Shown here piece by piece: positions 21,344-37,657 of a DNA stretch of 50,946 nucleotides (the first letter of the stretch is position 1; each line of letters opens with the position of its first letter). Origin of the DNA: an uncultured Bacilli bacterium. GTDB lineage: Bacteria > Bacillota_I > Bacilli_A > RF39 > UBA660. A program made the translations under genes and the position numbers. The notes below the pieces were generated by a model. That model saw nothing but the letters and a program-made list of their open reading frames with translations. It made no database searches and was not told where the DNA came from. The stretch covers positions 1-50,946 of the forward strand of contig CALVQY010000004.1 in the NCBI GenBank assembly GCA_944358355.1, given 5' to 3'.

Positions 21344-21372
21344 TTGCTATAGAGAAATTAATATGATACTAT
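21344..21372 (+). promoter_or_regulatory. Promoter of hydrophobic-peptide locus 1, sense
   Basis: TTGCTA at 21344-21349, a 17-base spacer and TACTAT at 21367-21372 preceded by TGA. The expected transcription start, near 21379, is the first base of the long inverted repeat. Confidence 0.75.
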
Positions 21373-21378
21373 TTATAT

Positions 21379-21631
21379 AGAGAACATTTAATGGTTGAGT
21401 GTTATCTCCGAGTATTTATATTTGGAGGTGATACTATGAGTAAAAAAGACTTTTTAGTTTCAACATTATTATTTATAATAATTTTACTTATTGTATTACT
21501 TTTTGTAGTTATCATTATATTAATATAAGACATAAAACAAAAAGAAAGCACTTAACTAAACGGCATGTTTAATTAGGTGCGTACCCTTTTACAGGAGAAA
21601 CACTTAACACAAGCGACATTAAATGTTCTCT
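21379..21631. repeat. Long inverted repeat joining the ends of the locus 1 mRNA
   Basis: The outer arms are a perfect 15-bp pair, AGAGAACATTTAATG at 21379-21393 with its complement at 21617-21631. Inner arms 21394-21409 and 21594-21608 add 15 bp with one bulge and one G-U pair. The right arm is followed by TTTTTATTTT, so the predicted mRNA has its 5' end paired to its 3' end. Confidence 0.85.
21436..21528 (+). CDS. Hydrophobic 30-residue peptide, type I toxin-like
   Basis: ATG 21436 has GGAGGTG about 5 bases upstream and encodes 30 residues. MSKKDFLVSTLL is followed by Ile/Leu/Val only, to the last residue: a single membrane-spanning peptide with a charged N-terminal cap. A second gene at 35971-36039 encodes a relative with the same KKDFL start. 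Known type I toxins (Ibs, TisB, Fst, TxpA classes) are similarly short and hydrophobic, but I cannot match this one to a named family. Its mRNA is predicted to be closed by a long 5'-3' helix, and an antisense promoter fires into its 3' part. Membrane toxicity is inferred, not shown. Confidence 0.72.
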   Translation: MSKKDFLVSTLLFIIILLIVLLFVVIIILI

Positions 21632-21664: not shown

Positions 21665-21693
21665 ATAGTATCATAAATATTAACTTTTGTCAA
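21665..21693 (-). promoter_or_regulatory. Strong promoter of the locus 1 antisense RNA
   Basis: On the reverse strand TTGACA (21693 to 21688), a 17-base spacer and TACTAT (21670 to 21665) preceded by TGA. It has a perfect -35 box, stronger than that of the sense promoter. Confidence 0.82.
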
Positions 21694-35817: not shown

Positions 35818-35846
35818 TTGAAAAAAAGATATTTTTATGATAATAT
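35818..35846 (+). promoter_or_regulatory. Promoter of the locus 2 antisense RNA
   Basis: TTGAAA at 35818-35823, a 17-base spacer and TAATAT at 35841-35846 preceded by TGA. The sequence from the -10 onward (ATGATAATATGAATATGTAA) is nearly the same as at the 21.6 kb antisense promoter. Confidence 0.8.
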
Positions 35847-35852
35847 GAATAT

Positions 35853-35975
35853 GTAAGGAAAACTTACATATAAATAAAAATGAGGAATACTTAGTTTTGC
35901 AGATGGGTATTTGCCTCAAATATTTTTGGTCAAACACCCTAATTACAAAGATGTAATAGGGTGTCCTTTTCTATC
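35853..35975 (+). ncRNA. Predicted antisense RNA of locus 2, about 120 nt
   Basis: It starts near 35853 with a small 5' hairpin (TGTAAG/CTTACA, loop GAAAA), the counterpart of the one in locus 1. It then crosses the 3' half of the peptide mRNA and ends at a stem-loop (35934-35947 with 35952-35964, one bulged A) followed by CCTTTTCTATC. It is antisense to the mRNA downstream of the peptide stop codon. Confidence 0.68.
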
Positions 35976-36112
35976 TATAAATAATCAACAATATGATAAT
36001 AATTAATAATATAACTATTAAAAAGTCTTTCTTACCCATAGACATTTCCCCTTTCCACCCCCTGAAATCAAGTAAGATAGAAAGAGGCAAAACACCCATT
36101 ACTAAGTATTCC
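35884..36112. repeat. Long inverted repeat joining the ends of the locus 2 mRNA
   Basis: The outer arms are a perfect 12-bp pair (35884-35895 with 36101-36112). The inner arms are ATGGGTATTTGCCTC at 35903-35917 and its near-complement at 36084-36099, differing by one extra base. The outer arm at 36112 coincides with the expected mRNA start, and the other is followed on the reverse strand by TCATTTTTATTT. Confidence 0.82.
35971..36039 (-). CDS. Hydrophobic 22-residue peptide, type I toxin-like
   Basis: The peptide starts MGKKDFLIVILL, continues with Ile/Leu only, and ends in Tyr-Arg. It is related to the 30-residue peptide at 21436 by the KKDFL start. I use ATG 36039, 8 bases after AAAGGGG; an in-frame ATG at 36045 would be only 2 bases from it. 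The flanking layout repeats locus 1 element by element: sense promoter, end-to-end inverted repeat, hairpin after the stop, and opposing antisense promoter. Toxicity is inferred from this architecture. Confidence 0.7.
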   Translation of the reverse strand: MGKKDFLIVILLIIIILLIIYR

Positions 36113-36118
36113 AACTAT

Positions 36119-36147
36119 ACAATATCATAAATGTATCTATAAAACAA
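36119..36147 (-). promoter_or_regulatory. Sense promoter of hydrophobic-peptide locus 2
   Basis: On the reverse strand TTGTTT (36147 to 36142), a 17-base spacer and TATTGT (36124 to 36119) preceded by TGA. The start would fall at 36112, the first base of the inverted repeat. Confidence 0.7.
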
Positions 36148-36190: not shown

Positions 36191-36766
36191 TTATTTAGTT
36201 AATACTTTATCTGGTTGCTTTAGAATACTTTCTGGATGATGAAAAGCTTTTTGAAATAAACTTATAGTATATTCTTCTATATCCCAATGCTGTTCATCAA
36301 TTGTTTTTTCCTTTCTATTTATCGTAAAACAATATACACAATCATAACCACGATTAAACTCACAATCTTCTTCATTATCTCTAAATACTGAATTGATTTC
36401 TTCAACACAACATACCATACTCATATCCCTAGCCATTATACCTATTGCAGGAGTATCAAAAAATATTTCTCCATTATCATCATATTCCCAAAAAGAAAAA
36501 ATAACATAATTATAATTAAGACAAATATTAAGTTCCTGCCCTAAAAGTTCTTCTTGAAGATTTTTAAATCTACTTTTAACTATATTAGAACTAATTAAAT
36601 CTAAAAACTGAATTAATCTTTTCTTTTGTTCAGTATTTTCATAATCACTTATCATATATTTAATTCTTTTACAATCTTCTTTTATTGCCTCTTGATATTC
36701 AAAAAACAATTCTAATTCGTCTTTAGGCATATCGTCAGAATAATAACTTAAATATAGATAATCCAT
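36191..36766 (-). CDS. Uncharacterised 191-residue protein
   Basis: I do not recognise a family. The protein is acidic and soluble, with a helical N-terminal half (DELELFFEYQEAIKEDCKRI) and a C-terminal part containing several Cys residues (MVCCVEEINSVF, YDCVYCFTINRKE). The ribosome binding site is weak (AAAGAAG). It begins 33 bases after the upstream gene, probably in the same transcript. Confidence 0.65.
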   Translation of the reverse strand: MDYLYLSYYSDDMPKDELELFFEYQEAIKEDCKRIKYMISDYENTEQKKRLIQFLDLISSNIVKSRFKNLQEELLGQELNICLNYNYVIFSFWEYDDNGEIFFDTPAIGIMARDMSMVCCVEEINSVFRDNEEDCEFNRGYDCVYCFTINRKEKTIDEQHWDIEEYTISLFQKAFHHPESILKQPDKVLTK

Positions 36767-36799: not shown

Positions 36800-37624
36800 T
36801 TACTTTTTATGATTAATTGAATAACCTAATCTTTTAGAATCACCATAATTCAATTCACTTAACATATCCATTGTCATAGATAATTCTTCATTTGCTTTTT
36901 CAATCATATTTCTTTTTTGTCTATCAGTTAATTCTATATAACCATCTTCACTTACCGCTTCATAAGTCATCAACTGATAACCAATAGTCATACATATATC
37001 ACTTAAACTTAATCCATCTCTTCCTAAGTATTCTTTACTTACACTAAAAGTCAAATATGTCTCTTTATTATTAGCTTTCTCCTCCATTTCTCTAATCTTT
37101 AAGACATTATAAATAATAGGTTTGCATAACCTAATAGCATCCTCATAATTAATTTTATCTCCTACTACATCAATATCTAAACTATCAAATAACTCCTTAT
37201 ATTCATCATTACCTATACTATAAACAAGGTCAATTAAATTAATAGTATTTTGTTTTAAATTACCAAGATACATATTAAAGTATTCTAAGGTAGTTGGATT
37301 AAGTTCATAAGTGGATGTTTTTAACTTCTTCATAAAATTATCTACAAAAATCTGTGATTTACTTTTATTACTATTATCCTCTTTAGTATTATCTTGATTA
37401 TCTTCCTTTTCCTTGTCTTTCAAAAATATAGTAATCTCTTCTTCTGTTAATTTTAGTCCTGCACTATTAACATAATCTCTAATTTCACTAAAAGAGATTC
37501 CTAAATTATCAGCACAAATAGAATAAATTATATATTTATCTATATAATCCCAATATTCTCCATATAATGCATATCTTTCTTCTAAATCAATATATTTATT
37601 AATATTTATATCTATATTTTTCAT
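36800..37624 (-). CDS. Uncharacterised 274-residue protein
   Basis: I do not recognise a family. ATG 37624 has GGAGGTAA upstream and is the likely start; a frame extension to 37654 has no such site. The protein is soluble, acidic and helical, with a low-complexity Asp/Asn/Ser/Lys linker around residues 80-100 separating two helical parts, and ends in a basic tail. It is 33 bases downstream of yneF and may be cotranscribed with the tkt-sirA-yneF set. Confidence 0.65.
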   Translation of the reverse strand: MKNIDININKYIDLEERYALYGEYWDYIDKYIIYSICADNLGISFSEIRDYVNSAGLKLTEEEITIFLKDKEKEDNQDNTKEDNSNKSKSQIFVDNFMKKLKTSTYELNPTTLEYFNMYLGNLKQNTINLIDLVYSIGNDEYKELFDSLDIDVVGDKINYEDAIRLCKPIIYNVLKIREMEEKANNKETYLTFSVSKEYLGRDGLSLSDICMTIGYQLMTYEAVSEDGYIELTDRQKRNMIEKANEELSMTMDMLSELNYGDSKRLGYSINHKK

Positions 37625-37657
37625 AACGTTACCTCCATTAGAAAAAACATGCAAAAA

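Follow-up and report, generated by a model that had tools for sequence, protein, structure and literature searches.

The results presented here indicate that the window, that is, the whole analysed stretch of 50,946 nucleotides from an uncultured Bacilli bacterium (contig CALVQY010000004.1), carries at 36 kb and at 21.4 kb two members of what is very probably a new family of chromosomal type I toxin-antitoxin modules, whose toxicity and expression are predicted. The parts of this reading that draw their support from sequence are the module architecture, the covariation of its arms, the conservation at the protein level, the predicted masking of the Shine-Dalgarno (SD) sequence, and the loss of a start codon in an allele with the antisense gene intact.

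Sense RNA of the 36-kb module

All elements of the 36-kb module that had been listed in an earlier note on this DNA, made from its letters only, could be read directly from the sequence, each in its place. The sense promoter lies on the minus strand and comprises the -35 element TTGTTT (36142-36147) and, 17 nt from it, the TG-extended -10 element TATTGT (36119-36124); a promoter of the TTG-17-TATNNT type recurs at this position in the alignment of the copies from the genus. The predicted transcription start is the first base of the 5' outer arm GGAATACTTAGT (36101-36112), whose perfect 12-bp partner is the 3' outer arm ACTAAGTATTCC (35884-35895), followed by the U-rich TCATTTTTATTTAT, at which the sense RNA is predicted to end; both outer arms covary. 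The 5' inner arm GGGTGTTTTGCCTC (36084-36097) pairs in the minimum free energy (MFE) fold with the 3' inner arm GAGGCAAATACCC (35905-35917) and is overlapped by an anti-SD stretch CCTCTTTC (36080-36087), which is complementary, with one G-U pair, to the SD sequence GAAAGGGG (36048-36055). The open reading frame MGKKDFLIVILLIIIILLIIYR (35971-36039), supported by the conservation of its KKD residues, encodes the predicted toxin peptide of 22 aa. Downstream of its stop codon, sequence and folding indicate a hairpin (35934-35964), which on the plus strand is the predicted terminator of the antisense RNA and is followed by CCTTTTC; similar hairpins are present in those other copies whose sequences were inspected.

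Two in-frame ATG codons precede the peptide. Initiation at 36045 would give 24 aa, but the spacing to the SD sequence is too short there; the next ATG, at 36039, is preferred because it is preceded by GAAAGGGG at a distance of 8 nt, and this spacing recurs in other copies that have one ATG. It yields exactly the 22 residues that had been attributed to the KKDFL peptide.

The predicted sense RNA (about 238-239 nt) folds at -81.0 kcal/mol, compared to -47.0 +/- 3.9 kcal/mol for its dinucleotide shuffles (z -8.6; none of 200 shuffles as stable), and its 5' end is placed against its 3' end. The scan of this single locus for promoters returned four promoter-like sites vs. 3.4 expected, which is not above chance, and the terminator scan called none, so the assignment of promoters rests on their conservation. 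Of 99 copies examined by a free consensus search, 54 had a sense -10 element ending 6-7 nt ahead of the repeat, and 53 had an antisense -10 element located 33-37 nt from the distal arm.

The module is located between a tRNA-Gln gene, with a class I tRNA synthetase gene beyond it, and an ORF without a Pfam match. Two minus-strand ORFs upstream of the module, 36191-36766 (191 aa) and 36800-37654 (284 aa), have no Pfam match.

The copy at 21.4 kb

The 36-kb module had been proposed to be the second copy of a peptide/antisense unit, and comparable elements are indeed found on the other strand at 21.4 kb, where the body of the peptide and the arm (15 bp) both differ. The plus strand carries a sense promoter TTGCTA-17-TACTAT (21344-21372), the 5' arm AGAGAACATTTAATG (21379-21393), the ORF MSKKDFLVSTLLFIIILLIVLLFVVIIILI of 30 aa (21436-21528), and the 3' arm CATTAAATGTTCTCT (21617-21631), while an antisense promoter TTGACA-17-TACTAT (21665-21693) is present on the minus strand. 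The arms were found by an inverted-repeat search, and both promoters were assigned from sequence and conservation. This copy lies between the genes of pyruvate kinase and formamidopyrimidine-DNA glycosylase.

Antisense RNA

The promoter of the predicted antisense gene of the 36-kb module is located on the plus strand and consists of the -35 element TTGAAA (35818-35823) and, 17 nt from it, the TG-extended -10 element TAATAT (35841-35846), both of them supported by conservation. Together with the terminator, its position predicts an antisense (antitoxin) RNA of about 118 nt (35853-35971), which folds better than chance (z -3.8). The 5' hairpin ATATGTAAGGAAAACTTACATAT (35849-35871) is part of the conserved anchor that was used for the sequence model R1 described below. 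The antisense RNA, as predicted, would start outside the repeat, span the whole 3' untranslated region (UTR) and end at the toxin stop codon, and the 3' arms of the 5'-3' interaction lie within the stretch complementary to it. These features, i.e., the placement of the promoter, the terminator hairpin and the complementarity, indicate a putative cis-encoded antisense gene that overlaps the toxin mRNA.

Since the 3' UTR repeats the leader in inverted orientation, the antisense RNA contains GAGGAATACTTAGT...GATGGGTATTTGCCTC, which nearly reproduces the leader sequence GGAATACTTAGTAATGGGTGTTTTGCCTC. Possibly, the antisense gene originated by an inverted duplication of the promoter together with the leader.

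The differing repeat sequences had been taken to suggest that the action of each antisense RNA is restricted to its cognate mRNA. Such specificity is supported for the two copies of the window, for which the longest complementarity is 9 nt and the energies are -54 and -55 kcal/mol, compared to -202 and -217 kcal/mol for the cognate pairs, but it may not extend to all paralogues. Among nine modules of this genome, cognate complementarity spans 111-142 nt (-182 to -231 kcal/mol), and non-cognate pairs share at most 28 nt, mostly at -41 to -114 kcal/mol; the 21.4-kb copy and the one on contig 35 are a close pair sharing 28 nt at about -170 kcal/mol.

Covariation of the 5'-3' pairing

Pairing of at least 12 bp between the 5' and 3' ends is present in the MFE structures of 97 of 100 nonredundant copies, and inverted repeats of at least 12 bp flank 24 of 70 copies from the genus vs. 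2 of 210 shuffles. The median energy of the duplex between leader and 3' UTR, determined for 121 nonredundant copies (one of them, probably a false member, was dropped later), is -46.4 kcal/mol for native pairs, -34.8 kcal/mol with the 3' UTR of another copy, and -27.3 kcal/mol after shuffling.

An alignment of whole transcripts (MAFFT with an RNAalifold consensus) contained too many gaps to be of use, and the arms were therefore tested separately. Independent divergence with preserved pairing, which had been claimed from the two copies of the window, was confirmed with 38 distinct outer-arm pairs, for which the register was anchored on the first four pairs and only positions 5-12, not used in the choice of register, were scored. 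These positions were paired in 86.8% of native combinations and in 57.2% after swaps of the 3' arms (best of 2000 swaps, 69.1%), values which derive from cells and copies that are not independent events and which describe the strength of the effect, not a probability. With looser anchoring, at least 11 of 12 pairs formed in 85% of native and 53% of swapped combinations, a weaker contrast, which is explained by the consensus common to most arms; when arms were listed in a fixed register and not anchored, different registers were mixed. The arms of copies from other genera (L173, L184, L186, and L273) are quite different and still pair. A chance origin of the module was rejected on the basis of the fold energies relative to shuffles, the inverted repeats, the duplex energies and the covariation of arms.

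Predicted masking of the Shine-Dalgarno sequence

The mean unpaired probability of the SD sequence in 100 modules is 0.17, compared to 0.45 in 30 ordinary genes of the window, and the folding predicts a primary transcript that would be translationally occluded. The motif GCCTC within the anti-SD stretch belongs also to the 5'-3' pairing, and since the anti-SD overlaps the inner arm, GCCTC can pair either with the SD sequence or with the 3' end, these two uses competing there. Removal of the 3' arms left the mean nearly the same (0.17 for the full mRNA and 0.19 without the arms), so the predicted masking appears robust. Upon 3' truncation, the SD sequence is predicted to open in 23 copies, to close in 19 and to remain unchanged in 55; as a general rule, that the 5'-3' pairing frees the SD sequence, or that it masks it, has no support in the folding either way.

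Peptide conservation and distribution of the family

In the search for copies of the KKD peptides, R, E and N were allowed at those sites, and KKD is kept in all 120 nonredundant copies, with codons that vary synonymously. Residues 6-22 of the peptide have a mean Kyte-Doolittle value of 3.4. We conclude that this small hydrophobic ORF is under selection at the protein level.

The view that the two copies of the window belong to a family has been borne out and extended, and the loci proved neither unrelated to each other nor without counterparts in close relatives. With a single peptide as query, nine copies were found in the 1.5-Mb genome (E up to 10), and 30 of the 35 genomes from the genus had matches, compared to none of 25 others. 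A profile of 20 peptides matched 222 of 385 genomes of the order, in 80 of 117 genera, every match falling into the same taxonomic family. The class (394 genomes) and the phylum (392 genomes) were sampled as well, and all peptide matches came from that family except one, a stretch of a 190-aa frame. Most of the genomes searched are metagenome bins, and copies may have been overlooked in them or assigned wrongly. The leader was matched in 44 contig stretches of Candidatus Onthousia species, a taxon placed by NCBI in Bacilli incertae sedis, or of other uncultured Bacilli/Tenericutes. Tandem copies of the module, about 320-430 bp apart, were observed in several genomes (L022, L050, L082, L056, L037, and others).

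Other peptides on the same antisense end

A genome search with the antisense 5' hairpin first revealed additional modules. The sequence model R1, which extends from the distal arm to the antisense -10 element and was trained on KKD copies only, gave 19 matches in the 1.5-Mb genome with E below 2e-5, followed by a gap to 0.011. Upstream of all 19 there is a hydrophobic mini-ORF of 22-32 aa behind an SD-like site; a similar, slightly narrower ORF criterion was satisfied at 19 of 4000 random sites of the window. By reading, 12 of the 19 encode KKD/RKD peptides, four encode a second class beginning with KTFILKLLK... or NRHIFVLKVLK..., and three are singletons. The genome contains about 19 modules, and the peptides that they encode are of two kinds as a minimum and probably of about five. 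The association of other peptides with the shared antisense end, and the predicted occlusion of the SD sequence, go beyond what the earlier note had described.

Modules L312 (G000:C1), L314 (C35), L315 (C41) and L313 (C6) have arms and an antisense end of the same kind and a peptide of the form M-K-x-K-T-F-I-L-K...AIKI. The singletons on antisense-end matches are MRKIEKFLCL... (L316, G000:C80), MDKKNNNEFYTI... (L368, C10) and MTKRELYLIL... (L369, C42), of which the latter two have new arms, GAATACAT/ATGTATTC.

Among genomes of the order, R1 matched 110 of 146, with up to 30 matches per genome. All matching genomes but two belong to one family. Outside that family, one clear match (L387) and one doubtful match were found in a class sample of 245 genomes. 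L387, from another family of the class, is a KTFILK-type module without a start codon, and could represent either a transfer or a stray contig. A separate search for the KTFILK class gave matches in 92 of 193 genomes of the order (49 of 83 genera); of 30 loci retrieved, about two thirds yielded its ORF by pattern, and most of these two thirds show the same kind of duplex between leader and 3' end.

Alleles at the tRNA-Gln site

Where a tRNA-Gln gene can be recognised in genomes of the genus, an M-x-KKD peptide is, by pattern, adjacent to it in most cases. In L294 the start codon is lost, and the arms, the leader and the antisense promoter are kept. The peptides of L283 and L292 are shortened by six residues, and eroded fragments of the module remain in L288 and L295, the similarity of the former ending inside the antisense promoter and not at the arms. 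No recognisable module is present at the tRNA-Gln site of L302 and L305-L308, and traces at most are left in L299; L297 is cut off by a contig edge. If the peptide were harmful and the antisense RNA protective, alleles would be expected in which the peptide is disabled and the antisense gene is kept; since it concerns one allele, the start-codon loss is suggestive rather than statistical. Across L282-L308, the upstream neighbour varies among genomes and the module stays with the tRNA gene, as might be seen where genes are turned over.

Comparison with known systems

At family cut-offs, the peptides tested had no match in Pfam, NCBIfam or PHROGs, where sub-threshold noise only was seen; these searches revealed no homology to the TxpA and BsrG toxins. 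No Rfam family reached its gathering score, and a relaxed E-value added nothing but chance hits. Carriage by a phage or plasmid received no support: two exact leader patterns had no match in viral contigs, and tblastn found no match in phage and plasmid records, in which the BLAST low-complexity filter may hide such a peptide. A search of the open-licence literature returned no family under KKDFL or KTFILK; the one KKDFL hit that was inspected is an unrelated Bacteroides sequence. On every feature that can be judged from sequence, the module is of the general type I kind, and it is not a member of any named toxin or RNA family that was compared.

In the bsrG/SR4, bsrE/SR5 and txpA/RatA modules of Bacillus subtilis, a small hydrophobic peptide is encoded by an mRNA that sequesters its ribosome-binding site; in the case of bsrG, binding of the antitoxin extends the masking of the SD sequence, and RNase III cleaves the duplexes of the B. 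subtilis modules (PMC6562991). The predicted organization presented here shares with bsrG/SR4 and txpA/RatA an antisense RNA overlapping the 3' end, a small hydrophobic peptide and a ribosome-binding site masked in the mRNA, but differs from all three in the KKD start, the peptide length of 22-34 aa, the long covarying 5'-3' arms and the presence of 19 modules in one genome. The aapA/IsoA systems of Helicobacter pylori are chromosomal and multi-copy, with a 5'-3' long-distance interaction in the mRNA and anti-SD hairpins that mask the SD sequence (PMC6733600). All of these traits have counterparts here, including the long-distance interaction seen in MFE structures and in covariation; in contrast to aapA/IsoA, the antisense RNA here corresponds to the 3' UTR and leaves the SD sequence and the beginning of the ORF uncovered, the predicted SD masking is independent of the 5'-3' pairing, and the peptides are unrelated as far as tested. 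For AapA, a 3' truncation that abolishes the interaction activates translation, whereas the effects of truncation predicted here go in both directions.

Convergent, overlapping genes of toxin mRNA and antisense RNA in several copies are also known from Clostridioides difficile (CD2517.1-RCd8 and CD0956.2-RCd10), where the toxins of about 47-53 aa combine a membrane part at the N-terminus with a C-terminus rich in lysine (PMC6563280). While the layout, the presence of several copies and the occurrence in Gram-positive gut bacteria are common to both, our peptide is half as long, its charged residues are mainly N-terminal, and the two copies of the window lie among housekeeping genes and not in a prophage. 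In hok/Sok, the full-length mRNA is inert, has 5'-3' pairing and is antisense-controlled (as summarised in PMC6733600). These properties are common to that system and, by prediction, ours, and no sequence relation was found. Sok targets the 5' region.

Proposed mechanism and alternative explanations

The module is best explained as working most like bsrG/SR4 and txpA/RatA, with an aapA-like long-distance fold of the mRNA. The sense RNA would encode a 22-aa single-pass membrane peptide with a charged KKD start, a hydrophobic body and a basic end, which is probably toxic. Its SD sequence would be masked by the upstream anti-SD, and the 5' end of the mRNA would pair with the 3' end over 25-30 bp. 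Binding of the antisense RNA to the 3' UTR may displace or pre-empt this pairing, and the resulting duplex would undergo RNase III-dependent decay, as with RatA and SR4. Loss of the antisense RNA or a step of mRNA remodelling would permit toxin synthesis. Transcription, toxicity, the action of the antisense RNA, and the role of the 5'-3' pairing in turning the mRNA off or on are what we infer.

Rather unlikely, in our opinion, is a role of the peptide as a non-toxic regulator, e.g., a modulator of a membrane protein, produced on demand under antisense control. The strong protein-level conservation of KKDFL agrees with such a role, and toxicity is only predicted, but a toxin fits better than a regulator with one target to the number of modules (about 19 per genome), to the occurrence of two or more peptide families next to similar antisense ends, to the loss of a start codon with the antisense gene retained, and to the SD occlusion.

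The perfect inverted repeat at both ends of the module, its many dispersed and in part tandem copies, and its presence or absence at the tRNA-Gln site would also be shared by a MITE-like mobile element that spreads the peptide and uses the 12-bp arms as terminal inverted repeats. We regard this as very improbable: transposon ends are conserved for a transposase, and no such conserved terminal repeats were found here, the arms differing between copies and covarying. Moreover, the arms coincide with the predicted transcription start and the U-tract, the antisense promoter lies outside them, the boundary of similarity at the partly retained site L288 falls inside that promoter rather than at the arms, and orthologues keep their position at tRNA-Gln. 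Even less credence can be given to a bidirectional terminator or attenuator between tRNA-Gln and its neighbour, with which the intergenic position and the hairpins are compatible, and for which the ORF would be incidental; the ORF is conserved at the protein level in many unlinked places and accompanies every antisense-end match of the genome. A terminator as the sole function is refuted by this conservation.

Implications of a probable toxin-antitoxin family

With the toxin-antitoxin reading preferred, we tentatively propose that one RNA chassis, consisting of the promoters, the anti-SD leader, the 5'-3' arms, the post-stop hairpin and the antisense gene, may carry interchangeable toxin ORFs and have spread across one family of uncultured gut bacteria. 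The antitoxin would be an inverted copy of the leader, and because of this it would compete with the leader for the 3' end. Up to about 30 modules per genome of about 1.3 Mb might then be built on this chassis, their toxins comprising singletons and a minimum of two classes that look unrelated (KKDFL and KTFILK).

Type I modules are difficult to detect, and reviews list toxins from a small number of lineages. The family described here is apparently new and has no match in the toxin and RNA libraries tested; over half of the genomes sampled from an uncultured order contain it. Its more than 100 natural variants with covarying arms offer a route to how a 5'-3' fold and a 3'-overlapping antisense RNA cooperate, and the orthologous intact, disabled and absent alleles would allow a direct study of why chromosomes accumulate such modules.
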